A stretch of DNA of 64,000 bases from Haloarcula halophila (GTDB taxonomy: Archaea > Halobacteriota > Halobacteria > Halobacteriales > Haloarculaceae). The translations under genes were made by a program, and so were the position numbers. The notes beneath the pieces were generated by a model. It was not told the origin of the DNA, ran no database searches, and saw only the letters and a program-made list of their open reading frames with translations. Below are positions 1 through 27,855 of this stretch, in pieces. Within the stretch, counting starts at the first letter, position 1; every line of letters starts with the position of its first letter. The DNA lies in contig NZ_CP119559.1 of assembly GCF_029278565.1 (NCBI RefSeq), positions 992,001 to 1,056,000 on the forward strand, in the 5' to 3' direction.

Positions 1-3000
1 GGTCCCGCCCCCGGCGCTGTCGTCGGTGCGGGCCTTGTGGGCACTGCGCAGCACCGAGGCGGTAGTCGCCTGGTCCAGCGACGGCGCGAGCAGGTACTCG
101 GCGTCGGGACCAGACTCCTTCGCGAGGTTCTCGACGAAGCCGAAGGCGCCGACGTGGACCTCGTCGGACGCGTCGACGCCGGCGCCCCGGAGCTCCTCCA
201 GCCGACGAGTCGCGACCGAGGTCCACCACGCGTCGAGGCGGTGGCTTGCGAGGTCCATCGTCTCCCTCGTCAGCCGGCCCAGCCGCTCGGAGTCGACCGT
301 CGCGAGGTGCGACACCGAGTCGAGGAAGCCGGCGAGCGCCGGGTCGACCGGCGGGTAGCTGTTCGAGGCGGACAGGGCAGTCGTCTCGACGACGTCCCTG
401 AAGTCCGAGTTCCCGGTCAGCTTCGGGTGGTCGGCGTACGGGTCACCGACGTGTGCCGCCGATCCGGACGGGACCGTGTCGGTGAACCGGTCGAAAATCG
501 TCCCGTCACCGGGGTCGTAGGAGGTCGGCTCGGCGGGCACGTCGGGCTTGTCGTGGTAGTAGATGGCGCCGAGACGGACACGCGACGCCACGGCGGCCTG
601 GAACCCCGCGAACAGGATTGCCTGTCGCAGTAGCGACGCCGTCGGGTCGTAGTCCGCGGAGTCGGTCGTCGGGTCGAGCGCCGCGATGACGCTCCGGGGG
701 ATGGACGCCGAGGACGACGGCGACAGCGAGACGTCCTCGTCGGGGTCCGTGCCGAGGATGCGTAGCGCGACGTCCGGCCACGGCGACTCGAACACGTCGC
801 CGACGGTGTCGAGGAACGTCGTCACGTCCGCATCGGTGACGGGCAGGTCCTCGGCGGTCAGCGACGCGCCGAGGAACAGGAGCCGCGCCATGCGGGGGAG
901 AAAGCCCGACAGCCCGGCGTCGTCAAGGGCAGTGCTGGTGTCCTGTACCAGTTGCTGGCGGAGCTGCGGGGCGTCCGGGTCGTTCAAGGGGTTGTCCTCC
1001 CCGAGCAGCCACAGCCGCCGCCGGTAGGTCGCGGCCGTCGCCTCCATCGACAGCATGTCCAGCAGCCGGTCGTCGGACAGCGCGGCGTCGTCGGTCACCG
1101 CGGGAACGTCCCCGGCCCAGTCAAGCCAGTCGTCGCGCAGCCACCACAACCGGGTCAACAGCTCCGGACCGAACGTCTCGTCGGGAATGTGTTTCACCTC
1201 CGGCGGGGTGTAGCCGGCACTCGACCCGTCGGTGCCCGTCTCGGACTCCTCCCATTCGAGGGGCGAGCGGTCGTCACTCCCGACGTCGACGGGCGAAACC
1301 GGCAGCAGGCCATAGGGCTGGGCCCCCGCCCGGAGGGTCTTGTACGGCCCGCCAGCGCGCACGTACTCGACGAAGTGGTCCCGGTAGGTCTCCAGCCACC
1401 GGAGCAGCCGTGGCGGCCCCTCGACCGAGTCGCTCCGGCCGGTCCCGAGCATCGGCGGTGTGGCGTGTTCGTCCTCGTCCTCGTCGTGCTCGTCGTCGTT
1501 CTCGCCGCCCAGTGGCACCAGCAGGTTCCGGACGTAGTAGCCGATGGTGGCGGGCCAGAGCGCCCGGTTCATCGCCCGGGCGTCGGTGTCGCGGGTGTCG
1601 CCCGCGCCGCCGACGTGGTCGAACGTCGCCGGGTCGACGCCGAGCGCCTCCGCCAGCCGCCACCCGTCGGTGCCCGACCCGGCCAGTCCCGGCCCGGTCG
1701 CAGTGTCGAGGCTCGCGGCCGGGTCCCGGGTCTCCGACCGTGCCGAAGGCTCGTCGGCGTTGTTCGTCGGCGTCCCTGGATCGAGCAGTTCGAGGCCGTC
1801 GGTGTGGTTGGTGGCGGCGAGGAGGTCCGACAGCGCCTCCGTAGCCGCCTCGCCGTCCATCGACGTCTTGAGCCCGAGGACGACCAGCTTCGAGAAGCCG
1901 TCGCCGGTCGCCTCGAAGTCCTCGTCCGGCAGCGGGACCCGTAGCCCCATCCCGGCCCGCTCGGCCTCGGGGAACTCGGTCATCCACTCCATCTCCCGGG
2001 TGGCGTCGCCGTCCCGGGCCACCGTCTCGGGGCTCGGGCCGACGGCGAGTGGCTCCGTGACGGGCGGGCCCGTCACGCGCCGGACGTGCTCGGTTCCGGC
2101 CCGGCGCTCGAGATACCCGTTCCCGGAGTCGCTCCACCCTGTCTCGACCTCCTGGTCGTCGTCGGCCTCCCAGTAGGCGAGCGCGACGAACCGGTCGGGG
2201 AGCAGCTCAGCGCGTGGCGTCCTCGTCCACGATTCGGGCCGGAGGTCCACGTCGGGAAAGTCGATTGGGTCGACGGTCTTGAGGGGCGGGTCACCCTCGT
2301 CGAATCCCTCGCGGAGCGCCCGCTCGAGGTCCTCGTCGTCGCCGACCTTGTGAGGCGACAGCGCCTCGACGACGTAGGCAGCCCGCTCCTCGCCGAACCG
2401 CTCGACGCCCTGTGCCCAGACGCGCTCGCGGACCTCCTCGTACCGCTGGCCCGGGTCTTCGGAGAACTCGCCGGCTTCGAACTGCTCGACGATCGACTCC
2501 GCCGCCTCGACGGAGTGCTCGTCCGGGAGGGCACTCGGGGACTCGAAGCTCCCGTCCGCGTCCACGAGGGCCTCGGCGGGGACGATGCCGGCGACCCAGA
2601 GCTTGACCCAGTACTCCCGTCCCCACGCGTACTCGTCCTCGGTGAGCTGGTCCTCGTGGGTGTCGACGTGCAGCTGCTCGGGGTAGACCCGCACCAGTAG
2701 CTCGTCGCCGTCGAACCGCGTCTCGAGGCGGACGGGGAGCATCGCGATGGGGGCACTCCAGTCGAGCTCGACGAGGGCATCGGTCTCGCCGTCGTCGACC
2801 AGCGCGGCGTCGGCGTCCGCGAGGGCCGCGACGTGCCGACCGACCGACTGCTCTAGCTTCTGCTTCGTGCCGTCGACGTCGACGATGGCCGACAGCGGCT
2901 GGTCCTCGTCCTCCGGTCGTTCGAGCTCCCGGGTCCCGGCGACCGCGAGGTGGGCGAGGTCGACCAGCACGCCGACGACGATGAGCGCCCGGACGTGGGC

Positions 3001-3471
3001 CTGTCGATCGTCGTCGTCGAGCAGCTCGTCGTACGCCCGGACGACCCCATCGGCCTCCTCCTCGTCCGCGGTTCCGTCGACCGCCTCCTCGACGAACGAC
3101 AGGAGTTCGTCGGGCAGGCCGCCGTCCTCGAACTGGAGCTGATCGGGAGACGTCACGTCGACGTCCGGCAGTTCGAGCTGTCGGAGGCGCTCTCGCAGGA
3201 GCGCCTCGACATCGGCCCCGTCGTACGCCCGCCCGAGGTAGGCGAGGCTGCGGCGGCCCTGGGTGTGACGGCGCAGGAGCCGCGCGAGGTGGGATTCGAG
3301 CTGTTCGTCGGACCGCTCGCGCTCGGCCCCCCGGACCACACGCTCGACACGGGTCCGCAAGGTCGACTGCACCATCCGCAGGTCCACGGCAGTCCGTTCG
3401 CGACGGTCGAGTTCGTCGCGGAGCTTCTGTACTTCCGTTCGCGTCTGTGTGAGATCGGGTTCGCTGGACAT
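1..3471 (-). CDS. Giant uncharacterised protein, 3' end beyond window (at least 1157 aa)
   Basis: The frame opens with ATG at 3471 ([11 protein letters not shown]) and stays open through position 1 with no stop, so the gene continues past the left edge. The stop of the previous gene is at 3474-3476, two bases before this ATG, so the two are surely co-transcribed. The N-terminal ~80 residues are charged and probably helical. Around residues 240-290 come the phrases LPVRLETRF and [17 protein letters not shown], then [26 protein letters not shown], a GTPTNNAD motif and [15 protein letters not shown]. Near the edge there is [10 protein letters not shown] followed by [17 protein letters not shown]. 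From memory these phrases recur in very large uncharacterised bacterial proteins that sit near DUF6603 genes, but I cannot name a domain. There is no signal peptide or obvious membrane helix. The reading frame is certain; the function is unknown. Confidence 0.85.
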
Positions 3472-3473
3472 CG

Positions 3474-6400
3474 TCAGTTGCTCACCCCGTTACCGGACGT
3501 CGAGTCGTTACAGTGGACTCCCCCGGTACCGGGGAGCAGGTCGTCGGCGTGGATGGCGATTCGCACCGGGCGCTGCCACGTGATGTACGCCATGTGCGCG
3601 CTGTTCAGGCCCCAGGTGGCCTCGTCCTCCTTGTCGAGCGTTGGATCCTGGACCGCATCCGTCGCGCTGTCGGTGACCCACTGGTTGGTCTTCTTCGTCT
3701 CCCAGCCCTCCTGACCGGGCACGTCCTTGTAGACGGAGATGTTGTCCTTGCTGTCGAGGGCCGACTTGCTCTCCACGAGGTGGCCCCACGACATGCCGCT
3801 CCAGCCGTGTTCGGGGTTCTCGTTCGGCTTGTCGGTGTCCGCGACCCCGGAGCCGTCGTCCGGATCGTCGTACGAGACGCCGTTTGGCCGCTCGCCGATG
3901 TCGCCCTGGTTGACGTCCAGTCCGAACCGGACCTCGCCGGGGGCCTCCTCCATCACGAAGAACCAGCCGAGTTCGTCGACGGGGTCGCCGTTCTCGGTCC
4001 CGGTGACCCAGCTGTCGCCCGACTCGCCGAGCGACTTCGTGGGCTCTGCCCCCTTCGCCTCGTCCGGCGTGAGGTCGAACCCGAGGAAGTTCACGTCCGG
4101 GTCGAGTTCGCCGCGGAAGACGGGGAACCGGTGATAGTCGGTGTCGACCGCGTCGTCGGTCTCCTGCTGGGACGCCCACTCGGGTACCCGCTCGCTGCCG
4201 CTCCCGTTCGTCCGGTCGACGCACTTCGCCTTCGTGGCGTAGATGGTCGTCTGGGGGTACCGCCGCAGCAGTTCCCCGCGAATCACGACGACCACGTTTG
4301 TGGTCGGCTCGGAGCCCTGCCCGGGATGCTGTGAGCCACCCCCGCCGGCACCGGTCATGATGTTCGACCCCAGCTTGCTCGTGGGCTTCTCGTCCCACGT
4401 GTGTATCTCGGTGATGTCCTTGAGGTCGTCGGGGTCGTCGGGCTTGGGGATGCGCGCGCTGGGGTCCCAGAACTGGCGGAAGTACGACCCCCGGCGGTCG
4501 GTGGGGAAGCCCCGCCAGAGCAGTTCGTCGGCCATCTCGTGGTTGAGGCCGGTCATGAACGACTCGATGAACTGCGGGTTGGTCGAGAGAGCGCCGAACG
4601 TCTCCCGCGGAATCTCCTCGACTCCCGGCAGCAGGTAGTCCTCGGAGACCTCCTTCAGGTCCCGGAACATCGGGTCCGGGAACTCGGGGTAGGCCATGAC
4701 CCGGTCGAAGGGATCACGCCGGCCCGCCAAGGTGAGGCCACCGAGGCGGCTCTCGGCCCGCTCCCGCAGGGACGTGACCGGGTCGACGGCGTCGGCGACC
4801 GACCCGAGGTCCGGTCGCTGGGCGTCGCCGGTCCCGACGTCGGGATCGCAGACGAGGCCGGCACTGTAGTCGTCGTCCGACCCCGTGGCGACGTCGAGGT
4901 AGTCCCTGACGTCGGCGATGGCGACGAGCAGGTCGAGGACGTCCGTCTGGGCCTCCCGTGCGTCGTCCGGACCGTACCGGTCGTCCTCGCCGGGGTCGAT
5001 GAGGTCCCGCTCCGCGATGGCCGCGAGGCGCTCGTACAGCTGCTGAGCCAGCTGTTCCGTGAACTCGTCCGAGACACCCGGCAGGTTGTGGTCGGCTTCC
5101 GCCTCGGCTACCGCCACCATCAGGGGTTCCAGCGCGTCAAGGAAGATCCAGACGTCGTTCCACCTGTTCTCCGCCCTCGAAGCGAGTTCGGCGGCCTCGT
5201 CCCGGTCGAGTTCCCCGCCGAGTAGCTTGGCGAGCAGGTTGAGGATGTCCTCGCAGACGCCCTCCGTCTTCGAGAGCCGTTTCAGGACCTCGTCCACCTG
5301 CGGCCGGTCCTCGTCGTCCTGCTGGTCGTCGTCGTCGCGCTGGCTCTCCAGGCTGGCACAGAGTTCCGCGAGTTCGACGTCGTCCTTCTGGGCGGTGATT
5401 CCGCCGGGACCGTCGTCGGACGACACGACGGACGTCCGGCCGTTCACGACGGTTTCGAGGATGCGCCCCGCGTCGACGGTCCTGTCGAGGCGCCCGGCGA
5501 GCCGGCCGGACCCGCTGGTGAGCCGCCGGAACGGGGCCGAGGTCAGCGCGCGGGGGACCGACGAGTCCTCGAGGTAGGCGCCGACCGTCCGGCCGTCGGG
5601 GGCCAGCACGCGGTCGTGAGCCGGGCCGGTGAACTGCGCGGTCCACCCCGCCGGGGTGTTCTCGAGGCTGCGGACCTTGGTCTCCATCGCCGCCCGCGAG
5701 AGCTGGGCCGCCGCGAGCAGCCGGTTAGCCTCGCGAATCTCGCCGACCTGGTCCCAGGCGGAGGCCATCAGCTGCTCCTGGTTGTCCCGTACGATGGAGG
5801 TGCCCACGGCCGCCGCGAGCCGGTGGCCGGGGTGGAGGTTGAGCGTCGAGAGCCACTGCTCGTTGCTCGGCGGGGTGTCGGGCAGCGTCGTCGTCTCGGC
5901 GTGTCGACCGCCGTAGATCTGTGGGCCGACCACGTCGTAGTCCTCGTCCGTGAACTCCTGGAGGGCTGCGGGCGCGTTGAGGAGCTCCCGGAGCTTCGCC
6001 CGCGTCTCTTCGGTGGCGTAGCTGCCGGCGGAGCTGTCCTCCTGACGGAGCGCCCCGCCGAGCCTGACCGTCCGGTCGTCGTCGGGCAGGCCCCAGAGCC
6101 CCAGCGAGTCGGGGCCGGGGTCGGTGGCGTCGACCTTCTCGAACCCGATGTCGTACTCCTCGCCGTCGTTCAGGTTCCGGGGCTCCAGCTTGCGGGCGAG
6201 GGACTCGAAGTCGCCCGTCTGCCCCGTCGTGAACGTCCAATGGTGGTACACCGGCAGCGTGACGGTCTCGTCGCCACTGCCGCCGTTGACGCTCGTCTTC
6301 GTGGGATCCCACGAGAGCGCCATCTTCCCGTCGTCCCGTTCCGGGACCTCCTTGCCGAGGCCCGCCATCCGACCGGCCTCGAAGACGGGGACGACGGCCG

Positions 6401-7127
6401 CGACGTACTTCGTGCTCCCCTGCAGGTTCCGGGGCGAGACGAGCCGCGAGCGCGTGAGCGTCGACTCCGAGCCGAACGCCTCCTCCAGTGTCCGACCGTC
6501 GCTCTCCTCGGACTCCGCCCTGGCCTTCGCGTCCGGGCTGCCGACCGTCTGGGCGTGAGCCCACGCCCACGCCTCGTCGAGGGGCGGGAGCTCCGCCACC
6601 GGCGCCTCGATGGACGGCAGGGGCTTCTGGCCGGCGGGTTCGATGCGGGTCTCCTCGGTCCGCTCGACGACGACCAGACAGAGCCAGGGCAGGCCACGAC
6701 CCTTCGGGTCCGAACTGCTGCCGCCGCCGTTCTGGGTGGTCTGGGTGTCGTCGGCCACCGGGCTGAACACCCACGGGAGATCCGGGGCGTCGAACTCCAC
6801 CGTCGCGAGGTAGTTCGGCGGGTAGTTCGTGGTGTCCTCCTCGGGCTCGCGGCGCACGACCTGGTTCTGGTCGATGCCGTCGACGTGCTCGGGGCCGTAC
6901 ATGTCGATGGAGACGTTTCGCTCCTCGGCCGGCGTCCCCGGGGCGTCGGGGGTCTCCACGTCGAAGTTCACCGTCAGCGACCCGCCAGCCGTGATCGCCG
7001 GCTTGCCCTGTGCGTCGTCGGCCGAGTAGTTCTGGGTGGGCGGGTAGCCACGCCGGACCACCGGGAAGAACCGGTACTTTGTGTCCGAGTCCGTCGAGGC
7101 GTCCTGGGGGTCGAAGTCCTCGGGCAT
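3474..7127 (-). CDS. Large uncharacterised protein (1217 aa), second giant of the locus
   Basis: Start [11 protein letters not shown] at 7127 is chosen because its ATG overlaps the stop of the upstream gene (TGATG, 7125-7129) and because the frame further upstream reads as arginine-rich out-of-frame sequence. The N-terminal part has beta-like segments ending in [12 protein letters not shown] and [13 protein letters not shown], then [44 protein letters not shown] and [13 protein letters not shown]. The C-terminal third holds [20 protein letters not shown] followed by [20 protein letters not shown] remember near-identical phrases in long hypothetical proteins of bacteria, so this is probably a conserved family shared across domains, but no function is known to me. 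It has no signal peptide and no predicted membrane segments. It lies between a DUF6603-type gene and a second giant gene, which implies a joint role. Confidence 0.85.
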
Positions 7128-10100
7128 CAGGACCCACCTCCCCCGGTGCCGCCGACTTCCTGGACGCCGACCACCTGCAGGTCGTCGCGGGCGACGTCGT
7201 TGGTGGTGGCGGCGTACTGGCGCATGGCGTCTCTCGCCTCGACCCGCGTCTGCCCCGACTCGGGGTTGCCGTCGAAGTCGACGCGGCTCAGATCGGACCG
7301 CTTGACGACGACGAACTGCTGGTCGTCGACGCCGACCTGCTTGGACGTGTCGTCGGTCCTGTAGGCCGCCTCGCCGCTGGTGCGGGTTGGAGCCGTCGCC
7401 ACCGCGCTCTGCTCGGCGAGTTCGTTGCTGACCGCGAGATCCAGCCGGGTGTCCCAGGAGTCGTCTATCGCGTCGATGTCGGTCCAGTAGTCCTCGTTCT
7501 CCTCGTCGACCACCGACGCCTCGTACTCGAGGGTCGCCCACGACAGCAGCGAGCCGTCGTCCGACCCGGCGTAGTGGACGATGCCGTTCTCGACGGTCCG
7601 GCCCGCCGGGAGCATCTCGAAGGCTTTCGACTCCAGCTTCTCCGAATCCGACATCTTCTCGAACTTCGCCGGCGCGAACTTCTCCCTGAGTTCCGTCTGG
7701 CTCGACAGGTTCTCCCCCGAGCCCGTGACATCGAGGTCCGAGAGGGCGAACCGCTGGTGCTTGGGCTTCGCGTTGCCGTACTTCTCGATGGGCACCCCGA
7801 GCGGGACGACCTGCTGTCGAACGCCCATCTTCCCGAGGGGGTGAGCGAGCAGGGGCCCGGAGCCCTGGGGACCGCCGCCGTCGTCGCTCCCGGCGTTCGG
7901 GTCGCGCAGGGTCACGAGGTGGCGACCGCCCTCGGGTTTCTGGACGCTCCAGTTCGCCGGCTTCTCCAGTTCGTCCGCGAGTTCGGTCAGGACGTCGGCA
8001 GTCGGGAGCTCCTCCGAGCCACCCGAGGAGCCGAACTTGGCGTCGACCGTTACCGTGACCGAGATGAACAGGATGTCGATGCTGAGTTTGCCCCGGACGC
8101 GGTAGGGCTGTGGCCCTTTGAGGGTCCCGTCGAGTTCGAGTCCCAGCCCCTTGCCCTTGATCGTCACCGAGATCTTCGCGTAGAAGTCGACGACGAACTT
8201 GAAGGGGTTGAACTTGAACAGCGCGTCGAAGCTCAGCTCCCCGTGGACCGTCGCCGGCCCGAACTCGCCGTGGAGCAGTGCGCCGGCGCCGACCTGGAAG
8301 GTGTTCGGCGTCACCGCGACGTAGCCGGTGTACTCCAGCCGGGGGTTGCCGCCGGGTGGCGACAGCGACGCCTTCACGCGGTCGAGTTTCGGGAACCCCT
8401 TCGGCGGCGAGTACCGCGGGTGGAACCCGCCGACCGAGAGCATGAACCGCGAGTCGTCGCCCCACGAGGCCCGCATGGCCATGTCGCCGGACAGCGTCCA
8501 CATCACCAGCCGGGAGTCGTAGAGGGAGGCGTCGATGGCCAGTTGCTTGTTCGGGATGTCGAGAACGCCCACGACGGCGAGGTTGATGTCGATGAGCGCG
8601 ACCTCCTCGTCGGGCAGGTCGAGCATGAACTTCCCGAGCAGTGCGATCTTCCACGACGGGACGGCGACGAGGACCCCGAGTTCAGCCTTCACGATGACCG
8701 GCGTGCCCCAGCCGAGGCGGATCATCGGGCCGAAGACGTGGCGGTCGGCCTTCGGCGGGAAGATGGTCCGCAGGTCCGTGATGATCTGGTCGGAGTTCTC
8801 GACGACGTTCTCCGGGAACAGTACCGAGTCGAGATTGCCCGACCGGACCGCCTTGCCGAGTGGCTTCTTCTTGAACCCCCGGTGGACGCCGGCCAGCCCG
8901 CCGATACCCGTCATCACGAAGCCGAAGCCGAGCTGGACGGGCGGTAAGTCCGCCGTCACGAGCAACAGCAGCGAGTAACCGTCGGTCCCGGGGACCTTCG
9001 TCTTCAGCAGGCCGATGACCTTCAGCCCCCAGTTGCTGAACTGGAGTTCGAGGCCGCCGGCGTAGCGGTGCTTCTCGGGCTCGAATAGCAGGAAGCCGCC
9101 GCCCGAGACCGGCCCGGCGTCGATCGAGAGGCCGATACCGTCCGGCGGGCGGAAGCCGAGTTCGACGTCGACTGGGCCGAGGTTGCCGTCCTGGCCCTCC
9201 GGGAAGGAGAGGTCGGCCTGGACGCCCATCCGCTTGACGTTGCCCGCAAGCGGGCCCAGCGTGATCGACGGCGAGGTGGCCGCCTCGACGGCGACGTCGC
9301 TGTCCTCGCTCGTCGGGTCGACCGCGAGGTACAGCTCCGAGATGCTCGCGAACCCGAGGTCCAACTGCATCGGGATAGTCGCCTCGATGGCCCCCCCACC
9401 CTCGAAGTACAGGCTGTCCTTCGTCGAGTACCCGACCGTCGCGCCGAAGTCGAACTCGACATCGTCCGTGAGAACCTTCTCGAGGAAGCCCCCGGACGGC
9501 GAGACGACGAACCGCCCGGAGGTCGGCAGCTCCACCTTGAAGATCACGTCCTCGCCCTTGTAGTCGACGACGGCGTTCGCCCCCGCCGACAGCATGTCGA
9601 GGCGCGTCCCGTCGGGCTTGCCCAGGAGGGTCGTCGAGCCGTCGCCCGAGCCGGTGTACTCCAGCCCGGCCTCACCGTGGAGCTTCGCGGGCGGGGAGCC
9701 CGAGTCGAGGTTCACCATGCGGGTGTTCAGCGAGCCGCCGCTCGTGGGCTGGACGCCGAACCCGCGGTTGCCGATCTCGCCCGAGCCGGAGACGTTGAAC
9801 GTGAAACTCCCGAGTGGTACTTCCGTGCCGGAGCCGACGCGACCGAACGGGACGATGGCCACCCCCGGGAGCGCGTCGGTCTTCGCCGGCAGCGGCACGA
9901 GCTTGAACCCCGCGACGATGCGGGTCCCGTTCTCCGAGTATGAGATGATGGGCACCCGCAGCTGCGGGTCGAGGTCCGCCTCACTCTCGACCGACAGGTT
10001 CGCGATGTCGTTCACGCCGGTGAGCTGTTCGACCTGCCCGGACGGCGGCCCCTCGATGGACGCCGGCACGCCGAGGTCCCAGAACGCCTCCTTGAGGTAG

Positions 10101-10687
10101 TACAGCACCACGAACGCGAGGAAGTCCTCCTGGTCCGAACCCCAGTTGAAGACCTCCTTGGGTACCTTCGCGGGGTTCTTCGCCGCCATGGGGAAGATAG
10201 AGAGATCGAGGTCGCCCGCGCCGGGTCCGTCGCTCTGCTCGATGACCCCGAGGAGCGACATGTAGCTGTGGACGCTCCGGTGGTAGTTCTGGAGGTAGGT
10301 GACCAGCAGGTGGTCCAGCAGTAGCTTGCCCAGCTTGTCGACCTCGACCTCGACGTTCTGGAACTGGATGTCGTCGAGGGTCCGCAGGCCCTCGAAGACG
10401 CTCGCGACGGCCTCGATGACCGCCGGGAGGTCGTCGACGGACGGCTCGTCGGCCAGCACTGTCTTCGCGAGGACTCCCGCCGGTTCGGCGATGGCCGAAT
10501 CGAGCGCGGAAGCCAGCTTGTCGGCCTCCTCGCCCGCGACGGCCTCGTCGAACCCCGCCTCGGAGAGGAAGTCGGCGACCCCTTCGGGCCCCTCCTCGGC
10601 CGCGTTCGCGATGGGTTCGACCGTCCGTCCGAGTTCCCGCGCGAGCAGTTCGGTGGTGTCCGGCTGCTCGCCGTCGGAGCCGCTCAT
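7127..10687 (-). CDS. DUF6603-type beta-rich giant protein (1186 aa)
   Basis: Start MSGSDGEQPDTTELLAREL. The first ~200 residues look helical. From ~230 to the end the sequence alternates short hydrophobic strands with glycine turns. The diagnostic block is at ~586-665: LGFGFVMTGIGGLAGVHRG, SGNLDSVLFPENV, DLRTIFPPKADRHVFGPM and IRLGWGTPVIVKAELGVL. I know these as hallmarks of DUF6603 proteins, found in bacteria and some haloarchaea and of unknown function. The extended repeated-strand pattern could form a long beta scaffold or groove, but that is inference. The tail ends in a glycine run (GGTGGGGS). There is no signal peptide. The gene is the first of a tightly spaced unit with the two downstream giants, to which it is linked by stop/start overlap. 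Confidence 0.85.
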   Translation of the reverse strand: MSGSDGEQPDTTELLARELGRTVEPIANAAEEGPEGVADFLSEAGFDEAVAGEEADKLASALDSAIAEPAGVLAKTVLADEPSVDDLPAVIEAVASVFEGLRTLDDIQFQNVEVEVDKLGKLLLDHLLVTYLQNYHRSVHSYMSLLGVIEQSDGPGAGDLDLSIFPMAAKNPAKVPKEVFNWGSDQEDFLAFVVLYYLKEAFWDLGVPASIEGPPSGQVEQLTGVNDIANLSVESEADLDPQLRVPIISYSENGTRIVAGFKLVPLPAKTDALPGVAIVPFGRVGSGTEVPLGSFTFNVSGSGEIGNRGFGVQPTSGGSLNTRMVNLDSGSPPAKLHGEAGLEYTGSGDGSTTLLGKPDGTRLDMLSAGANAVVDYKGEDVIFKVELPTSGRFVVSPSGGFLEKVLTDDVEFDFGATVGYSTKDSLYFEGGGAIEATIPMQLDLGFASISELYLAVDPTSEDSDVAVEAATSPSITLGPLAGNVKRMGVQADLSFPEGQDGNLGPVDVELGFRPPDGIGLSIDAGPVSGGGFLLFEPEKHRYAGGLELQFSNWGLKVIGLLKTKVPGTDGYSLLLLVTADLPPVQLGFGFVMTGIGGLAGVHRGFKKKPLGKAVRSGNLDSVLFPENVVENSDQIITDLRTIFPPKADRHVFGPMIRLGWGTPVIVKAELGVLVAVPSWKIALLGKFMLDLPDEEVALIDINLAVVGVLDIPNKQLAIDASLYDSRLVMWTLSGDMAMRASWGDDSRFMLSVGGFHPRYSPPKGFPKLDRVKASLSPPGGNPRLEYTGYVAVTPNTFQVGAGALLHGEFGPATVHGELSFDALFKFNPFKFVVDFYAKISVTIKGKGLGLELDGTLKGPQPYRVRGKLSIDILFISVTVTVDAKFGSSGGSEELPTADVLTELADELEKPANWSVQKPEGGRHLVTLRDPNAGSDDGGGPQGSGPLLAHPLGKMGVRQQVVPLGVPIEKYGNAKPKHQRFALSDLDVTGSGENLSSQTELREKFAPAKFEKMSDSEKLESKAFEMLPAGRTVENGIVHYAGSDDGSLLSWATLEYEASVVDEENEDYWTDIDAIDDSWDTRLDLAVSNELAEQSAVATAPTRTSGEAAYRTDDTSKQVGVDDQQFVVVKRSDLSRVDFDGNPESGQTRVEARDAMRQYAATTNDVARDDLQVVGVQEVGGTGGGGS

Positions 10688-10690
10688 GCT

Positions 10691-10713
10691 GGCCCCCGTC
10701 GACGTCGGGGGCC
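10691..10713 (-). promoter_or_regulatory. GC-rich hairpin in front of the DUF6603-type start codon
   Basis: The arms GGCCCCCG (10691-10698) and CGGGGGCC (10706-10713) pair perfectly around a 7-nt loop. In the minus-strand transcript this places a very stable stem 4-26 nt before the ATG at 10687, over the place where a ribosome binding site would lie. No separate Shine-Dalgarno sequence is seen. The hairpin may limit translation of the giant-protein unit or terminate early transcripts; there is no poly-U run to support the second. Confidence 0.5.
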
Positions 10714-10914
10714 GTCGAACCTCCGTCCGGGACCTCGCCGGTTCCGCTCAGTAGAATCGGTCACGGGTCCCTCCTCGCTGCCCCTCGGAGGGCCGGTGGT
10801 CGGATCGAGAATCGGCCGACTGCTCGGCACCGAAGCCGAAAACGTCCGTCCTCCCTGGCGACCACCACGCCCGTTCGACGTTATCGACTGGCATACCTGT
10901 TACTCAAAGAGAAT

Positions 10915-10923
10915 GAACTTAAT
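10915..10923 (-). promoter_or_regulatory. Candidate TATA element for the DUF6603-type unit
   Basis: The minus strand reads AATTAAGTT in an AT-rich patch of an otherwise GC-rich gap. The same core TTAAGTT lies upstream of the M15 gene. A start ~27 nt downstream would give a leader of roughly 200 nt that contains the hairpin at 10691-10713. Confidence 0.35.
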
Positions 10924-11094
10924 TCTTTCCAAGGTTGATCCCGGTCCGTTGAGCAACGGCGCGTCGTTGAGTTTAGTCCGGAAGACGGTCCGATTCATCG
11001 GAATATCGTCGGAACTGGGGGGTTGTGGCGGGCCCCGGGCCACCGCTTCCCCGTCCGAACGGTGAGTCCAAGGCAGGGAGGGGCACCGCCGTCG

Positions 11095-13419
11095 TCACAC
11101 GGAGGTACCGGTGTACACGAGGTTACTGAAGGAGGTCCAGCCGATGAGCTGATCGCCCGGCGTGGCGACCTTGGCTATCTTGGACCCGTCGGGACCGTTC
11201 CGCGCCTCCTTGTACTGGACGTATATGCCCCAGCTCAGCTCCCAGTACCCGTCTACGTCGTCGTCGTCACTCTCCGCGTAATGAACGTCCACGCTGTCCT
11301 CCCAGAAGGACCGCAGCGGGTTGCTCTCGTCAGTCGCGGGCTGCAGGTCCTCATCCGGCGTGTCCGGCTTCGGCTCCCGGAGCCACGCGGCGCGGCTGTC
11401 CACGCCGTAGATGCCACCCTCGACCTCGGTCCCGGCTTCAGCCGGGGCGGTTGGACAGTTCTCGAAGTACTCGGCTGGCTGCTCGTCGTCCGGACTCAGT
11501 CCCCGGAAGTCGTTGTGGTGTTCGTTCGCGTCCGCTTTCGCGTCCTCCGGTGCGTCGCTGTACGCCCACGCGTCCCCGGCGTCTCCGATCCACGGGTACG
11601 GCTTGATGTCGACGTGGAAGTTGTTCCACTGGCCGCCCACACCGGTCCGGGGGTCGCAGGGGTTGACGCCTTCGGGGCTGATGTCGTTGTAGTTCTCGTC
11701 GACGAGGGCGTGAAGCGCCATCTTCGCCAGCTCGACCTGGTCGAACCCCGGATTCCGGTCCGGGGAGAGGTTGGCCTCGTTCGTCCACCCGAGCACGTTG
11801 CCGCTCCGGTCCTGGACCTTGACCACCGAGTCCCCGTCCGGGTTCGTGGCGCTGTCCCCTGTCTCCTCGACCTCGGTCCCCTTCGTTATCTTCCAGATGT
11901 CGGTATCAGTGTGTTGGGTGACCGATCCGGGAGGGCTGTCCCCGTACCAGTTACTGTACGCCGAAACGTTCACGATGTCCTGGGTGAACGTGTCGTACGC
12001 GGGGTCCGCGTCGGGGTCCCGGAGGTACGCCTTGTCGTTATCGATCACCTGGTACGTCGTCGACGCGAAGTCGATGTCCGCCCCGCGCCCGGAGCAGTGC
12101 TCGCTCCGCGTCAGGTCCTTGTAGACCGGGTCCGACTGGTCCGAGAGGGTCAGTTTCCACTCGTAGTCCTCTGTGTCGCCGTCGCCGTCCGTGTCGACGC
12201 TGTGTGGCCCGGGCTCCATGCTGTCGATGGTGCTCTCGTCGTCCGGCCAGTCGTACGTGTCGCCCTCCCGGTTGTACTCCCAGTGCCGGTACCCCGATCC
12301 GATCCTGAGTGAGTACTCTTCGTCGGCGGCGGCTTGTTCGTCGTTGACGTGCTCGCGTAGCTGCTCCAGGTAGCGGACGAACGCGGGGTCGATGCGGGCC
12401 CGTGTGAACTCGGTGTTGCCGCTCTGTGCGTACTCGCCGACGGTGAAGTGCTCGGACAGTTGCTTCTCGCGGTGGTCCCCACTCGTATCCAGCAGGGGGT
12501 TGCCGCTGTAATTGGGGTCCCAGTGCTGTTCGCTCAGTGGCCACTGGTTGTCGTCCCGCGCGTCGGCCCCCCCTACCACGGGCAGCGTCGCCCCGCTCGG
12601 GAACGTGACCTCCTCGGCCGTCCCGCCACCGCCGCCCGCACTCCCGCCACCCCACTCGGGGATACGCAAGCTCCCCTTCTGCCAGAAGGAGTGCTCGGGT
12701 GGCTCCCATGACGCGCCGCCCGTCGTCGATACGAACCCAAGCTGGCCCAGCAGCCACTCGTAGTGCTCGTAGCTCGTCTGCTCGACGGCGATGTTCCCGC
12801 TCGTGCCGTTGATCAGGAGGTCAACGACGAATGCTCGCCAGAGCACATCGTTCTTTTTCCACACCAGCGCCGCGTCGCTCGTCGGGTGGAGGGTGACCTC
12901 GCCGGAGAGCAGCCCCCGGCCCCCGCCCGCGTCGACGCCGATATTACCGAACGCCTTCTCCCACTGCTTGGGCGTCAGCGGCTCCTCGGTGGCGAAGTGC
13001 GCGGCGAAGAAGCACCCGGCCGTCTTCCCCGAGGTCGGCTCGTCGCCGAGTGGTTCCGGGCCGTTCTCGCCTTGCCTGGCGAAGATGTACATGTGGGGGC
13101 CGTGGGCCGGCACGCTTTCGACCTTCGTGATCCAGATCATCGAGAGGCCGATGGCGCCGCTGAGGTCCATGAACGGCGGCAGGAGGTGATTCGCCGTCGT
13201 GCTGACCTCCAGCTCGAAGCCGAAGGCGCTGATGCCAGCGTCCGCCAGCTTCCCGAACGCGTCGGCGTCGACCACGTTCTCGACTTGCTTCCGTATCGCG
13301 TTCGCGTTCTGGTATCCGGCGGGGCCGACGGCAGACTCGCCCTCGAGCCGTCCGACGGGGAACTCCCGGAAGACCCTCCCCCCTTCGGTCGGCGTCTCGG
13401 GTTTCGTGTCCTGAGCCAT
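11095..13419 (-). CDS. M15-type D,D-carboxypeptidase/endolysin-like protein with SH3b-like modules
   Basis: 774 aa, start MAQDTKPETP, preceded by a GGAGTGA ribosome-binding-like stretch and a TATA element ~40 nt upstream. Residues 1-255 form a domain shared with the neighbouring 1034-aa protein, ending in WLLGQLGFV and a PEH-FWQ-G motif. A Gly-rich linker (256-267) follows. The catalytic part starts near HFTVGEYAQSG (~324), with LRIGSGYRHWEYN (~371) and SEHCSGRGADID (439-450). This fits the M15 metal motif H-x2-G-x3-D, with H441 and D448 as zinc ligands and H602 in FHVDI as the third. Between D448 and H602 sits an SH3b-like insert (~464-552, ending LGWTNEANL), and a second copy closes the protein (~672-770). 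There is no signal peptide. M15 enzymes cleave peptidoglycan cross-peptides, which this archaeon should not possess, so the target is probably bacterial. Confidence 0.8.
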   Translation of the reverse strand: MAQDTKPETPTEGGRVFREFPVGRLEGESAVGPAGYQNANAIRKQVENVVDADAFGKLADAGISAFGFELEVSTTANHLLPPFMDLSGAIGLSMIWITKVESVPAHGPHMYIFARQGENGPEPLGDEPTSGKTAGCFFAAHFATEEPLTPKQWEKAFGNIGVDAGGGRGLLSGEVTLHPTSDAALVWKKNDVLWRAFVVDLLINGTSGNIAVEQTSYEHYEWLLGQLGFVSTTGGASWEPPEHSFWQKGSLRIPEWGGGSAGGGGGTAEEVTFPSGATLPVVGGADARDDNQWPLSEQHWDPNYSGNPLLDTSGDHREKQLSEHFTVGEYAQSGNTEFTRARIDPAFVRYLEQLREHVNDEQAAADEEYSLRIGSGYRHWEYNREGDTYDWPDDESTIDSMEPGPHSVDTDGDGDTEDYEWKLTLSDQSDPVYKDLTRSEHCSGRGADIDFASTTYQVIDNDKAYLRDPDADPAYDTFTQDIVNVSAYSNWYGDSPPGSVTQHTDTDIWKITKGTEVEETGDSATNPDGDSVVKVQDRSGNVLGWTNEANLSPDRNPGFDQVELAKMALHALVDENYNDISPEGVNPCDPRTGVGGQWNNFHVDIKPYPWIGDAGDAWAYSDAPEDAKADANEHHNDFRGLSPDDEQPAEYFENCPTAPAEAGTEVEGGIYGVDSRAAWLREPKPDTPDEDLQPATDESNPLRSFWEDSVDVHYAESDDDDVDGYWELSWGIYVQYKEARNGPDGSKIAKVATPGDQLIGWTSFSNLVYTGTSV

Positions 13420-13549: not shown

Positions 13550-16500
13550 TCAGTAGAGGTTCCCCATGTTGGTCCAGCCGATGCGGGTTCCGTCGCTGGC
13601 GTGCTCTATCTCGATGATAGCGACGCGGTTCCCACCAGACGTGTAGCTGTCACGATCGGTGACCGTGACCGGCGTTCCCTGGTCTACCTCCCACGTGTTG
13701 GGGCCTTGGTTGACGTACGCGAGGGTGTTCCAGTTGTTGTGCAGCGGGTTCGCCCCCGTGACGGGCGCGTACCCGTTGTTGGGGTCCCGAAGCCACGCCT
13801 GACTGCTCTGTATCACGTGAGTCGGCGTGCTCGACTGGGGCGCGTCGAAGTCGAAGGAGTCGCGGTCCTCCGAGAGGAGGTCGTCGGCGGCGCCGCTCCG
13901 ATCCGGCGTGACGCCGTCGGCGAGATCGGTCGCCGAGAACAGCCGATAGCGGCTCTCGTGGTTCGGGTCGGTCTGCCACCCGATCCAGTGGGGCCAGTAC
14001 CTGACGACGTCGATCCGGCCGATACCGTCGTTCGTCATCTCGGTCGCGATGTCGTCGACCATGTCCGCCTCGTGCTGGTCGCCGCTGTTGCCACTCCAGT
14101 CGTTGGTCGAGAGGTCCTGGTTCCACCCGTTCCACGCGTTGTCGACGGCGTCCCCGAGCGTGTTGCCGCCGGTGTCGATGACGTGGGCTGGGCTCTTGAT
14201 GTGCCACCGCAGGACGAGCGCGATGCCCCGCTCGGAGGTGACCACGTCGCCGATAGTTGCCGGATCGCCGCCGTCGTTCGGGAGGTGGGAGACCCCCGGT
14301 GGCCACAGCGTGTTCCGGATGTCGCGGATGCGGAAACGGGTCATGTCCCACATCCCCTCTCGGTACCCGTCGACGGTTCGACCGGCCATCACGAACCGGG
14401 AAAACCAGTGCCAGCCCCGGAAGTAGTCGCCGTCCCGGCGGTGGACCGGCTCCCGGCTCACGTTGCCCCCGCTCCCGCGGTAGGCCAACGTCAGCTTGTC
14501 GGTGTAGTTCCGGAGGCCGTGGTTGAACAGGTCGCTCCCGTTGTTCCCCCACGCGGTGTCGGTCTCGACGCCGAAGTGGCCGAACGCCTCGTCGAAGGCG
14601 TTCTGGTTGCTCGATTCGAGGTAGCTGATGTACGCCGGTAGCTCGCCCTCCCGCAGCTCGTCGTCGGCGTGGCCCGAGGCCGGCCCGCCCTGCCCGTAGA
14701 GCTCCTGGGTCGGTCGCTTGATCTCGTTCCGCCATCGGTTGTAGCCCCAACTACCGAACTCCTGACTGGGGTTCCGGCCGGCCGCCCTGAGTGCCAGGGT
14801 CCAGTGACACGGACCGATGGACACGATGGCCGTGTCCCAGGAGTTGACGTCGTCGAGGTACCCTTCACACTCCAGTTCGGAGGAGGCGCGGACGATCTTG
14901 AACGTCGAGAGCGTGTCGGTCCCGGAGCCGCCAGTTTCGAGTGGCGTCAGGTTGACGTTGGTGCCGACGATGTTCTCCGGCAGCACCTCCCCGGTCCGGG
15001 GCCACGTCTGGTCGTAGTCGGGGTCGGCGTAAGGCCCGCCGTACGTCTCCCTGTAACCGCTGGAGGTGTTCGCCATCGTGTCCCGCTCGTAGTGCCCGAC
15101 CACGTACGCCGCCGGGCGGGTCAGGTTCCCGGTGTCGATGGCCGGGACGTCGACCGCGGTCGCCGATGCGCCGTAGTACTCCGAGAAGTCGGTCACGAAC
15201 ACCGAGTCGTCGGTGGGGTTCGACGCGTGCTCCAGGTCGAGCCGCTGCCAGAAGTTCTGGAAGACGACCCTGCTGTTGCCGCTGGAGTCGGTGAAGGCGT
15301 TTTGGTAGTCCGTCTCGTTGCCGTTGCTCACCGCGTTGTGGGTCTCGGTCCGCACGGTGTCCTCGTCCGTTATCTTCTCCATCACCACCGGACACCGCCA
15401 GTCGTTGTCGAGCCAGTACTGGATGCGTTTGGCCGTCTCCTCGTTCAGGACCCCCGAAACGTCCCCGTCGTAGGTGGCGTCGTTCGCGACCGCTTCGAGG
15501 TTCTCGACGTAGCGGTCGTTGCCGCTGCCGGTGTGGTGGGCGACCGTCTCGCGCTGTGCGTGTATCTGGAACTCCCGAACGGCCCACTCGGTCACGGCAC
15601 GGAAGTCCCCGCTCGCGTCCCCGGTCGTGAGGGTCGACTGGCTGCCGGGCTCGAAGCTGTAGTTGCTCCGCTGGCCGGACGCGACCATCCCACGGAACCA
15701 GAACCCGAGTTCCCAGAGGTCCGACTGGAGCTGTTTCACGTGGTCCTCGCGACCGGCGTTGCCGACGGTGACCTCGTAGTAGAGCTCCGAGCCCCCGTAC
15801 TCGCCCAGGCCGGCGACGTCGCTGAGGGGGTCCCCACCGCCCCCGCCGCCCCCACTGCCACCCTCGCCACCCCACTCGGGGACGAGCGTGTCGCCGTTCT
15901 GCCAGAAGGGGTGCTCGGGCGGATTCCACGAGCTACCGGATATCCCGTCGACGAACCCGAGCTGGCCGAGCAGCCACTCGTCGTGCCGGTAGCGCGACGC
16001 CGTGATGGTCGGGGCCAGCGCGTCGCTCCCGAGGGAGAGGTCGGCCGCGAACGTGTGCCAGACGTCGCGGTCGTCCCACACGAACACCGAGCCGTCGGCA
16101 CCGTACATGGTGGTCTCGCCGGAGAGGATGCCACTTCCGCCGCCAGCGTCGACGCCGACCGTGCCCATGGCGCGGTCGAACTGCGAGCGGTCGAGCGAGA
16201 CCGAGCCGTCGCCGAAGTGCGCCACGAAGAACGACCCCTCGACGGTCTGGGCGGGGTTCGGCGCGTCGGCGATGGGCTCGGCCCCGCCGGTACCGGCCCC
16301 GTCCTCGCTGTAGTTCGCGAAGAGCGTGACGTGTGGCCCCCGGTCTGCCCCGTCGTCGGCCCCGACCAGCCAGACCAGGGAGATGCCGATAGCGCCGTTC
16401 AGTGATCCGAACGGGGCGCTGTTACCGGCCTGAGCGTCCACCTCTACCTCGAACCCGAAGCCGTCTATCTCCGCGTTCGCAAGCTGCGTGACGGCTGCGT

Positions 16501-16654
16501 CCGTGAGCGTGCTTTCGACCTGAGCGCGGATGGCCTCCGCGACCTGGTACCCGCTGGGCGTGTCGCTGGCCCGGTTCTGTAGCTCGCTGATCGAGAGGTG
16601 TTTGTACACCCGACCGCCCTCGGTCGGGTTCTCGGGTTGGACTCCCTGGGGCAT
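13550..16654 (-). CDS. Peptidoglycan-binding-like, putative cell-wall-targeting protein (1034 aa)
   Basis: Start MPQGVQPENPTEGG. Residues 1-262 are homologous to the N-terminal domain of the adjacent M15 protein: same order of motifs, including GxxGILSGE-type and GxxGLLSGE-type segments, WLLGQLGFV and the PEH-FWQ-G ending. A polyglycine linker (~263-274) follows. Residues ~300-410 resemble a PG_binding_1 fold: HVKQLQSDLWELGFW, then GDFRAVTEWAVREFQ and a final ETAKRIQYWL. A large middle domain (~590-900) contains YLDDVNSWDTAIVSIGPCHW and ELPAYISYLESSNQNAF, which may be catalytic (glycosidase- or lysozyme-like) but which I cannot assign. The C-terminal ~100 residues are SH3b-like (QAWLRDPNNG to RIGWTNMGNLY). 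There is no signal peptide. It has its own promoter and is the first gene of the locus. Confidence 0.8.
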   Translation of the reverse strand: MPQGVQPENPTEGGRVYKHLSISELQNRASDTPSGYQVAEAIRAQVESTLTDAAVTQLANAEIDGFGFEVEVDAQAGNSAPFGSLNGAIGISLVWLVGADDGADRGPHVTLFANYSEDGAGTGGAEPIADAPNPAQTVEGSFFVAHFGDGSVSLDRSQFDRAMGTVGVDAGGGSGILSGETTMYGADGSVFVWDDRDVWHTFAADLSLGSDALAPTITASRYRHDEWLLGQLGFVDGISGSSWNPPEHPFWQNGDTLVPEWGGEGGSGGGGGGGDPLSDVAGLGEYGGSELYYEVTVGNAGREDHVKQLQSDLWELGFWFRGMVASGQRSNYSFEPGSQSTLTTGDASGDFRAVTEWAVREFQIHAQRETVAHHTGSGNDRYVENLEAVANDATYDGDVSGVLNEETAKRIQYWLDNDWRCPVVMEKITDEDTVRTETHNAVSNGNETDYQNAFTDSSGNSRVVFQNFWQRLDLEHASNPTDDSVFVTDFSEYYGASATAVDVPAIDTGNLTRPAAYVVGHYERDTMANTSSGYRETYGGPYADPDYDQTWPRTGEVLPENIVGTNVNLTPLETGGSGTDTLSTFKIVRASSELECEGYLDDVNSWDTAIVSIGPCHWTLALRAAGRNPSQEFGSWGYNRWRNEIKRPTQELYGQGGPASGHADDELREGELPAYISYLESSNQNAFDEAFGHFGVETDTAWGNNGSDLFNHGLRNYTDKLTLAYRGSGGNVSREPVHRRDGDYFRGWHWFSRFVMAGRTVDGYREGMWDMTRFRIRDIRNTLWPPGVSHLPNDGGDPATIGDVVTSERGIALVLRWHIKSPAHVIDTGGNTLGDAVDNAWNGWNQDLSTNDWSGNSGDQHEADMVDDIATEMTNDGIGRIDVVRYWPHWIGWQTDPNHESRYRLFSATDLADGVTPDRSGAADDLLSEDRDSFDFDAPQSSTPTHVIQSSQAWLRDPNNGYAPVTGANPLHNNWNTLAYVNQGPNTWEVDQGTPVTVTDRDSYTSGGNRVAIIEIEHASDGTRIGWTNMGNLY

Positions 16655-17379: not shown

Positions 17380-17470
17380 TCAAGCGCGGGTGAGCGGTCG
17401 CCCGTGGACTCGACAGTTTTCGAACCCCCAGAAAGCGTTATACGGTGGGATTGTAGAAGAGAGGGTGTAA

Positions 17471-17543
17471 GCCGGTGGAGGGATTTGAACCCTCGGCCTA
17501 ATCCTTACGAAGGATTCGCTCTGCCAGTCTGAGCTACACCGGC
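17471..17543 (-). tRNA. tRNA-Thr (anticodon CGU)
   Basis: 73 nt without intron. The acceptor arms GCCGGTG and CACCGGC pair over 7 bp. The D arm is GCTC/GAGC, the anticodon stem AATCC/GGATT with loop TTCGTAA (anticodon CGT, reading ACG), the T arm GAGGG/CCCTC with loop TTCAAAT. The 3' CCA is not encoded. Its 3' end faces the giant-protein locus, the usual side for integration of archaeal elements. Confidence 0.95.
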
Positions 17544-25936: not shown

Positions 25937-26719
25937 ATGCTCACCTTCGTCGGCCTCGGACTCTACGACGAGCGCTCTGTCACACTGGCCGGTCGGGACG
26001 CGATCGAGGCGGCCGACCGCGTGTTCGCGGAGTTCTACACCAGTCGGCTCGTCGGAACCGACCTCGAATCCCTGGAAGCCACCCACGGTACCGACATCGA
26101 AGTCCGTGACCGCGCTGGCGTCGAACGGGACCCCGAACCGGTTCTGGCCGCCGCCGAGACCGAAGCCGTCGCCTTCCTGACCGCGGGCGATACGATGGTC
26201 TCGACGACACACACCGATCTGCGCCTCCGGGCCGAGAACCGTGGGATCGAGACGCGCGTGATCCACGGGACGACGGCACAGACCGCCGCCGGGTCGCTGA
26301 CCGGACTCCAGAACTACCGCTTCGGGAAGGCCACGACTCTCCCGTTCGAGGACGCCCACGGTGGTGACGGCGTCCCCGACAGCGTCGTCTCGACGATCGA
26401 AGCCAACCAGGCCCGCGACCTGCATACGCTGGTCTACCTCGATATCAAGGTCGACGATCCCCACTGGGACGACAGCGACGACACCTACATGACCGCGGAC
26501 CACGCCGCCGAGCAGCTCGCCGATCGCTTCCCCGAGCAACTCGGTGTCGTCGTCGCCCGCGCCGGAAGCCCGGACCCGACCGTCGTCGCCGACACGCTCA
26601 CAGCGCTCTCAGAACGGGAGTTCGGGGCACCGCTGCATCTGCTCGTCGTTCCAGCCGACCTCCACCCGATCGAAGAAGACGCGCTAACCGAACTCGCCGG
26701 ACTCCCCGAGAAGCGTTAG
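25937..26719 (+). CDS. dphB: Diphthine synthase
   Basis: 260 aa, MLTFVGLGLYDERSVTLAG. This is a tetrapyrrole-methylase fold with VAFLTAGDTMVSTTHTDL as the SAM-binding GD-(P/T)-M-x-A/S-TTH segment and VYLDIKVD near residue 170. It trimethylates the modified histidine of elongation factor 2 during diphthamide synthesis in the cytoplasm. Length is normal. Its stop overlaps the end of artA by four bases on the opposite strand (convergent). Confidence 0.94.
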   Translation: MLTFVGLGLYDERSVTLAGRDAIEAADRVFAEFYTSRLVGTDLESLEATHGTDIEVRDRAGVERDPEPVLAAAETEAVAFLTAGDTMVSTTHTDLRLRAENRGIETRVIHGTTAQTAAGSLTGLQNYRFGKATTLPFEDAHGGDGVPDSVVSTIEANQARDLHTLVYLDIKVDDPHWDDSDDTYMTADHAAEQLADRFPEQLGVVVARAGSPDPTVVADTLTALSEREFGAPLHLLVVPADLHPIEEDALTELAGLPEKR

Positions 26720-27714
26720 TCGTCACCGGGTGTCGCGCTCGTCTCGGCGTCGGGCGTGTGAAACGCCGCTTCGAGATCGTACTCGTTGCCGGTCAGCATG
26801 AACAGCAGGTCCTCGACCAGTACCGTCATCTCCGGAAGCTCCCGGACCAGTATCCACGTGAGTCCGACGAGGACGACGACCGAGCCGACCTGTGCGAGAA
26901 TCCGATCCGCGAGATAGTACGACACCATCCGTGGGTCCGAGATCCCGAACAGCGACATGATTGGCCCCTCGAAGACCTGCATCCGCTGGCGGCCAAACGA
27001 GATGGCGATGAAGACGTTCCGGAACAGGTTCAGGACGTAGATCACCGCCGCCGTCGCCGCCAGCGCCCTGAGCTTGCGCCGCCACGGGGCCGACACCGCC
27101 AGGATGGCACCGGCGAAGATCGAGATACTCCCGATCCCGGTACAGGCAAGCAGGATGTTGTAGGTGACCGGCCCCTCCTCGTGGTCGAACCAGAACGTGC
27201 TCTCGTAGGGGTACTGCTTGGTGACGATCTCGATCCCGTTGTGTGAGAAGCCGTCGACGACGACGGGATCGACGCCCAAAAGCGCCATCAGAAAGCCGGT
27301 CTGGTCGGTGACAACCTCGACCAGGAACTGCCGGAGCGGCTCGATCGTGAGGAAGGGGACGTAGACGATTCCCATCGTCCCGACCGCTCGGGTCAAGACG
27401 AACAGCGAGTCCCGCCCGTTCCACAACAGGTAGCCGGCATACAGCGACAGCGGGACCGCGGCCACGCTGCCGATCCCCTCGACGAAACTCTTCTGTGTCA
27501 GGACGAAATGGGGGATCAGCACGAACCAGAACGCGCCGAACAGTCCCCACCCCGTGACTGCCGTGATTCTGGCCCACTGCTCGTCTCTGTGGTGGAGGAG
27601 CGCACTTCCGAGAAAGCTCGCGAGGACGAGCCACATCAGCGGCTCCGAGAGAACGAGCGGGTCAAACGACAGTCCAGCGAACGTGACACGGGACTGCAGG
27701 ACTGTCGCCATCAT
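26716..27714 (-). CDS. artA: Archaeosortase A
   Basis: 332 aa, MMATVLQSRVTF. About eight hydrophobic segments. The active-site set of exosortases/archaeosortases is visible: Cys in LLACTGIGSISIF, Arg in LNLFRNVFIAISFGRQ, and a further conserved Arg/His region near MVSYYLADRILAQVG. It cleaves the PGF-CTERM tail of surface glycoproteins and joins them to a lipid in the membrane. The PGF-CTERM protein encoded directly upstream (27855-30986) is an obvious substrate. A near-leaderless promoter precedes it. Confidence 0.93.
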   Translation of the reverse strand: MMATVLQSRVTFAGLSFDPLVLSEPLMWLVLASFLGSALLHHRDEQWARITAVTGWGLFGAFWFVLIPHFVLTQKSFVEGIGSVAAVPLSLYAGYLLWNGRDSLFVLTRAVGTMGIVYVPFLTIEPLRQFLVEVVTDQTGFLMALLGVDPVVVDGFSHNGIEIVTKQYPYESTFWFDHEEGPVTYNILLACTGIGSISIFAGAILAVSAPWRRKLRALAATAAVIYVLNLFRNVFIAISFGRQRMQVFEGPIMSLFGISDPRMVSYYLADRILAQVGSVVVLVGLTWILVRELPEMTVLVEDLLFMLTGNEYDLEAAFHTPDAETSATPGDD

Positions 27715-27818: not shown

Positions 27819-27855
27819 AAAAAAGGCGAGTTTCAGGGACCGGAGTTACTCCGGT
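27819..27855 (-). terminator. Terminator of the surface glycoprotein operon
   Basis: The stem ACCGGAG/CTCCGGT with a 3-nt loop (27839-27855) begins at the stop codon of the PGF-CTERM gene. It is followed 15 nt later by six U residues (27819-27824 on the minus strand). This separates the highly expressed surface genes from artA. Confidence 0.55.

Follow-up and report, generated by a model that had tools for sequence, protein, structure and literature searches.

A divergent M15-type metallopeptidase gene on a mobile island of Haloarcula halophila, in the exchangeable slot of a conserved DUF6603 cassette

Why would a haloarchaeon carry a gene for an enzyme of a kind that cuts peptidoglycan? The question is raised by a minus-strand gene, here called B, in the 64,000 nucleotides of Haloarcula halophila contig NZ_CP119559.1 that we analyzed (positions 992,001 to 1,056,000; hereafter the window). 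The first-pass annotation placed the three zinc ligands of M15 peptidases in its product and judged turnover of the organism's own cell wall not to be a plausible role. The latter judgment is supported. A search that detected the penicillin-binding protein (PBP) transpeptidase domain (PF00905) in 10 of 14 control genomes found none in the H. halophila genome, and PF08291 (Peptidase_M15_3) occurs in 0 of the 292 haloarchaeal genomes sampled; a self cell-wall role of B is therefore unlikely. PF08245 was dropped as a murein marker, being also present in Haloferax volcanii. Elsewhere in the window, positions 27855-30986 (minus strand) encode a surface-anchored, S-layer-like protein of 1043 aa with DUF7827, DUF7282, and PGF-CTERM, adjoined by an exosortase-like gene (26716-27714).

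The M15-type assignment of B has also held. The GC content by codon position (0.64/0.46/0.89) is coding-like and typical for genes of this genome. H441 and D448 lie in SEHCSGRGAD and H602 in NNFHVDI, and the motif pair [ST]xHxxGx[AG]xD ... H[VILF][DH] has a single occurrence in a six-frame stop-to-stop translation of the window, namely, B; it is found in 0 of 96 related cassette loci. Weak tblastn matches to the core of B are headed, among annotated phage genes, by those for a peptidase or endolysin. Three phage matches to this core, two of them annotated as peptidase or endolysin, seeded a set of 45 M15 endolysins gathered from viral contigs. The profile of this set matches intact B in two ordered segments (E=3.6e-7) and, once the inserts are removed, the core more strongly (E=7e-10); of about 11,500 decoys, made up of shuffles and unrelated open reading frames, the best reached E=1.8. 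PHROG_894 (endolysin) matches residues 318-385 (E=1e-4). Intact B has no match in Pfam or NCBIfam, because about 50 extra residues separate SGYR from SEHC and about 100 separate D448 from H602. The spliced core has PF08291 as its top Pfam match (E=0.1), with VanY at 0.13, both below cut-off, and its 13.2 bits fall short of the PF08291 gathering score of 23.2; we therefore describe a divergent M15-type domain, not a Pfam member.

H441 and D448 fall on columns invariant in 45 of 45 viral enzymes, and the E, S, and R columns that are likewise invariant are also kept in B. The column of H602 is kept in 44 of 45, but its motif, scanned alone, finds its best place in the rest of B at p=0.26 against shuffles, which is not significant. 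The third ligand, placed by order and alignment, is therefore well placed, not proven. An AlphaFold (AF2) model of B as a single sequence without an alignment (pLDDT 34.5) is too low in confidence to judge whether the ligands converge. Overall, homology supports the description of B as a divergent, interrupted metallopeptidase of the M15_3 type. Its closest comparison is with PF08291 and phage M15 endolysins such as that of Faecalibacterium phage FP_Toutatis (AUV56799.1), with which it has in common the LSxHFxvxEf start, SGYR, SxHCxGxAAD, and the terminal HVD. It differs from them in two large insertions, one of them SH3-like and located between ligands 2 and 3, in its fusion to a slot-type N-terminal domain, and in scoring below the Pfam cut-off. 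Neither tblastn nor pattern scans of 145 relatives' genomes besides its own, genome contigs, plasmids, phages, and viral contigs found a relative of the whole of B.

One reading of these peculiarities is that B keeps the M15 fold with no murein peptidase activity, as a degenerate domain for binding or structure in a large particle made by the neighboring genes. The large insertion between ligands 2 and 3, the divergence below Pfam thresholds, and the weak independent support for H602 all fit such a loss, whereas the retention of all zinc-ligand and SGYR positions invariant in the 45 viral enzymes would be unexpected without catalysis. We consider this reading unlikely.

The architecture of B is best understood together with that of the gene before it, A (Table 1). 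Both proteins begin with a common domain of about 260 residues (44% identity), which Gly-rich linkers follow in each. They also have in common a module with the pattern AxLRxP ... GWTxxxNL, present three times (inside the M15 domain of B and at the C termini of B and A) with scores of 69 to 93 that 0 of 1000 shuffles equaled; we call it SH3-like from its pattern, and the insert of B has no Pfam match. The PG_binding_1-like stretch of A is sub-threshold (E=0.0014). Beyond it lies a domain with conserved E and CHWT motifs, and residues 375-834 of A recur fused to PhoD at the corresponding position of actinobacterial loci L074, L078, and L120; in the relative from L120, PG_binding_1 is above the cut-off. 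The A core found no match in viral contigs and no relative in a PDB profile search. A hydropathy scan of A and B revealed no evident signal peptide or membrane segment. A TATA-like TTATAT is located about 45 nt 5' of the ATG of A.

Table 1. Coordinates of the genes and domains discussed, in window positions unless given as G000:C1
Feature	Position	Strand	Description
tRNA-Thr(cgt)	17470..17543	-	3' end is the island insertion point
Gene A	13550..16654	-	1034 aa; slot-type N-terminal domain, PG_binding_1-like stretch (306-363), unknown conserved domain (~375-835), SH3-like C-terminus
Gene B	11095..13419	-	774 aa, ATG start; slot-type N-terminal domain, Gly linker, interrupted M15_3-like domain, SH3-like C-terminal domain
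B residues 1-257	12649..13419	-	Slot-type N-terminal domain, 44% identical to A residues 1-262
B residues 317-455	12055..12471	-	First M15 part, with SGYR, H441 (12097-12099), and D448 (12076-12078)
B residues 456-555	11755..12054	-	SH3-like module between ligands D448 and H602; scores 93 (B C-terminus) and 86 (A C-terminus)
B residues 556-612	11584..11754	-	Second M15 part, with H602 (11614-11616, FHVDI)
B residues 668-774	11098..11418	-	Second copy of SH3-like module
Gene C	7127..10687	-	1186 aa; DUF6603 (PF20248, E=6.5e-125); helical N-terminus and large amphipathic antiparallel beta-meander
Gene D	3474..7127	-	1217 aa; conserved cassette protein without known family
Gene E	1..3471	-	N-terminal 1157 of 3078 aa in window; runs left to G000:C1:986235
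Gene F	G000:C1:984041-986233 (outside window)		730 aa

A to F form a six-gene minus-strand operon in which B is the second gene and of which E and F extend past the window. The operon occupies 24.6 kb of a 25.7-kb island (G000:C1:983791-1009469, or about -8209 to 17469 in window positions). In a sibling genome (G020), whose flanks have 86-89% DNA identity, the island is absent and the flanking genes are about 2 kb apart; the similarity extends exactly as far as the tRNA-Thr(cgt) 3' end and picks up again 25.7 kb to its left, beyond the cassette. No att repeat (a copy of at least 15 nt of the tRNA 3' end) was found at the left island end. DUF6603 is above the cut-off in 19 of 391 genomes of the class and is absent from the other members of the same genus among those listed. 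Given the empty site and this patchy distribution, we conclude that the island is mobile and a recent, patchy acquisition. A winged-helix-like remnant is one possible reading of the stretch between the tRNA and A (ITERQVREHLHTLQNRG).

A location of this kind raises the alternative that B is an endolysin from a phage or provirus, stranded in the chromosome and unconnected to its neighbors. The closest relatives of its catalytic domain are indeed phage endolysins, and the 3' end of a tRNA is a typical site of integration for viruses or other elements. However, no other PHROG match was found in the proteins scanned (A, C, and part of D), nearly the whole island is taken up by A to F, and phage or viral collections match A and B through weak M15 core hits only. 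Moreover, the first ~260 residues of B recur not only in A but also in proteins encoded at the same place in other cassettes, as described below. We regard a stranded endolysin as quite improbable.

Genes C to F have a distribution well beyond this island. A scan with an alignment of C returned 349 relatives in bacterial and archaeal genomes, from which 80 loci were kept; these and 16 haloarchaeal loci form the cassette comparison set. C (DUF6603), D, E, and F are kept in order in bacteria and haloarchaea: C-D-E in 87 of the 87 loci with all three detected and C-D-E-F in 43 of 43, counts that are unweighted by phylogeny and include duplicates, with at least four loci counted twice (those fetched twice and still in the counts are L031/L044, L026/L047, L027/L049, and L034/L050). 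No relatives of C to F turned up in PDB profile searches, PADLOC, or Pfam beyond DUF6603, and no component of a known secretion apparatus matches them. None of the papers in the collection searched mentions DUF6603, and a search for combinations of the associated families found nothing. Two DUF6603 cassettes about 150 kb apart (L043 and L048), preceded by genes of different families, are present on plasmid unnamed1 of Natrinema gelatinilyticum.

The structure of C was modeled from a 57-sequence alignment (AF2; pLDDT 80) as a helical N terminus and a core of long antiparallel strands. Hydrophobicity alternates along these strands (mean odd-even contrast of 3.1, versus 1.4 in shuffles, with 0 of 500 as high), and the model suggests for C an amphipathic surface that could contact a membrane or lipid; D to F may build a large particle around it. 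The best PDB matches to the helices of C are designed coiled coils. Porin and usher barrels, LptD, and apolipoprotein B were rejected as relatives of C (Foldseek, VIA; rmsd of ~11 A over ~265 residues); judged from the model, the resemblance to barrels and lipid-carrying sheets is the common arrangement of a beta-meander, not a relationship. The middle region of E (residues ~1440-1870) recurs in tblastn near haloarchaeal cassettes L028, L033, L031, L032, L037, and L038. Its readable copies (L028 5815-9741 and, on the reverse complement, L033 5370-8480) are PKD-like, that of L028 with an N-terminal hydrophobic segment, and these copies hint that the E region may act at the cell surface.

What changes from cassette to cassette is the gene immediately 5' of C, whose product is in most cases a hydrolase or resembles a toxin; we call this position the slot. 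Over the 93 loci in which the upstream gene is readable, the distance from the stop of the slot gene to the start of C has a median of 1 bp (interquartile range, -18 to 25) and is at most 40 bp in 70, with C starts estimated by alignment and the statistics covering the best-scoring relatives only. The gene preceding the slot gene is on the same strand in 56 of 83 loci and, of these, lies within 40 bp in 10; the slot gene thus belongs to the operon, unlike, as a rule, the gene before it. When A and B are counted in, the slot proteins form 10 groups of at least two members and 11 singletons. At least 10 unrelated families are found in the slot. The representatives scanned, named from profile matches, comprise a PhoD-like phosphatase, peptidase M64, a subtilase, an NAL1-type protein, phospholipase D, HET-C, an M14 carboxypeptidase, a tyrosinase, and DUF2515. 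The slot protein of L112 matches M23 just under the cut-off (E=1e-5), that of L120 combines PhoD, PG_binding_1, and the A-type core, and those of L074 and L078 also contain this core. The largest haloarchaeal slot group resembles the C-terminal portion of BTH_I2691 (NF041559), a T6SS effector family, with E values of 1.9e-11, 8e-6, and 1e-4 for the three members scanned, below the curated cut-off. Another haloarchaeal family of ~415-430 aa, which has no Pfam match, occupies the slots of L026, L027, L047, L048, L049, and L077; by eye, its QGxxxYC-type motif resembles the start of a cysteine protease.

In H. halophila the slot holds two genes, A and B. They are tied to it by sequence, because stand-alone homologues of their N-terminal domain occupy three haloarchaeal slots (L042, 4e-6; L033, 7e-9; L041, 7e-18 after iteration), and these homologues are also the strongest reason to view the domain as a putative docking module. 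On the other hand, 407 bp (10688-11094) separate B from C, versus almost none in other cassettes, so the coupling of B to the cassette is weaker than is usual. The gap contains a possible 48-aa frame on the minus strand (MPVDNVERAWW...). In a hydropathy scan, slot proteins had no N-terminal hydrophobic segment, with two or three exceptions, and many of them come from families that are usually exported; signal peptides or transmembrane segments are likewise not evident in A to D and F.

We lean, with modest confidence, toward the reading that B and the putatively wall-binding A are exchangeable cargo of an undescribed C-F cassette, probably directed against bacterial murein. Its basis in the sequence consists of M15 homology, the operon, the island, cassette conservation, slot diversity, and the shared N-terminal domain; docking, export, murein as the substrate, and an antibacterial role of A and B are what we infer. 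In the mechanism that we propose, the N-terminal domain would dock A and B onto the products of C to F. These products may assemble into a particle or translocator, by which A and B would leave the cell with no need of a signal peptide. A would then bind murein and B would cleave the stem or cross-bridge peptides of the murein, with damage to bacteria that are competitors or prey. No immunity gene was identified, and the archaeon would need none, its own cells having no murein. Docking of cargo through the N-terminal domain appears better supported than export without a signal or the cutting of murein by B with A.

That the product of B is aimed at bacterial murein is plausible in view of the PG_binding_1-like stretch in A, the PG_binding_1 domain in L120, and the published archaeal peptidoglycan hydrolases that kill bacteria (PMC12352652). 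The cargo reading on murein draws on the first two of these (A below threshold, L120 above the cut-off) and on the sub-threshold M23 in the slot of L112, and is weakened by the missing Pfam match of B, the low-confidence structure model, the lack of independent support for H602, the 407-bp gap between B and C, the failure of C to F to match any secretion apparatus, and the absence of the M15 motif pair from the other 96 loci. Tyrosinase and PhoD in other slots are not obvious weapons. Indeed, many cassette hydrolases (M64, S8, M14, and PhoD) would fit a secreted digestive function, and tyrosinase is not an obvious toxin either, as might be expected if B were an active M15 peptidase serving nutrition by scavenging murein fragments or other D-amino-acid peptides. 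HET-C, phospholipase D, and the slot proteins resembling a T6SS effector are better explained by conflict, however, and the patchy, mobile distribution also speaks against a nutritional role, which we judge somewhat unlikely.

The cargo reading can be compared with systems already described. As the first-pass annotation had noted, peptidoglycan hydrolases acting on bacteria are described for archaea; these are M23 and glucosaminidase enzymes that carry PG_binding_1 together with Tat signals (PMC12352652). Two from Halogranum salarium, Woldo and Danwoldo, resemble the A/B pair in being haloarchaeal, in uniting a wall-directed enzyme with PG_binding_1, and in their patchy distribution and likely bacterial origin. 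They differ in being M23 or glucosaminidase proteins whose own chain includes PG_binding_1 and a Tat signal (PMC12352652), whereas B is of the M15 type, has no evident signal, and belongs to a multigene cassette. The published definition of a modular archaeal peptidoglycan hydrolase combines a Pfam catalytic and a Pfam wall-binding domain in one protein (PMC12352652); B lies outside it, as neither domain reaches Pfam thresholds and the PG_binding_1-like stretch is in the neighbor, A.

The cassette also resembles polymorphic toxin and effector systems, including T6SS and contractile injection system (CIS) effectors (PMC3482391), in its conserved genes, which are accompanied at a constant position by an enzyme or toxin gene that is exchanged between loci, and in a shared N-terminal domain of the trafficking type, and it has the arrangement by which polymorphic effectors are recognized. 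In contrast to those systems, it lacks a sheath and known trafficking or immunity domains, and C to F match nothing beyond DUF6603. Contractile systems of haloarchaea have been published (PMC11566945). A contractile injection system or T6SS was rejected here, as the phage-type sheath PF04984 has 0 matches in the H. halophila genome in a search that works on controls. The slot group related to BTH_I2691 differs from the T6SS effectors accordingly: it adjoins DUF6603, and the sheath gene family is missing from the H. halophila genome.

A broader proposal, which we put forward tentatively as possible, is that C-D-E-F is an undescribed, noncontractile delivery apparatus of many bacterial phyla and haloarchaea that exports or injects the signal-less effector encoded immediately upstream; the payload in H. 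halophila would be the murein-targeting pair A and B, an archaeal weapon against bacteria.

Archaeal peptidoglycan hydrolases were already known; the new elements are an M15-type enzyme in a haloarchaeon, its placement in a slot with exchangeable contents, and the cassette. The genomic setting of B is of greater weight than the enzyme: B occupies the slot of a conserved cassette, marked by DUF6603, that lies on a mobile island. Only one gene of C to F is in Pfam, as a domain of unknown function, and a hydrolase or toxin-like gene abuts the set. Even without a role in delivery, these four genes, which encode about 6,000 residues and keep their order across domains of life, deserve to be understood. 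If they do encode a delivery system, it would be of a kind distinct from contractile and known secretion systems and spread over bacteria and haloarchaea, and it would give archaea a route for attack on bacteria.
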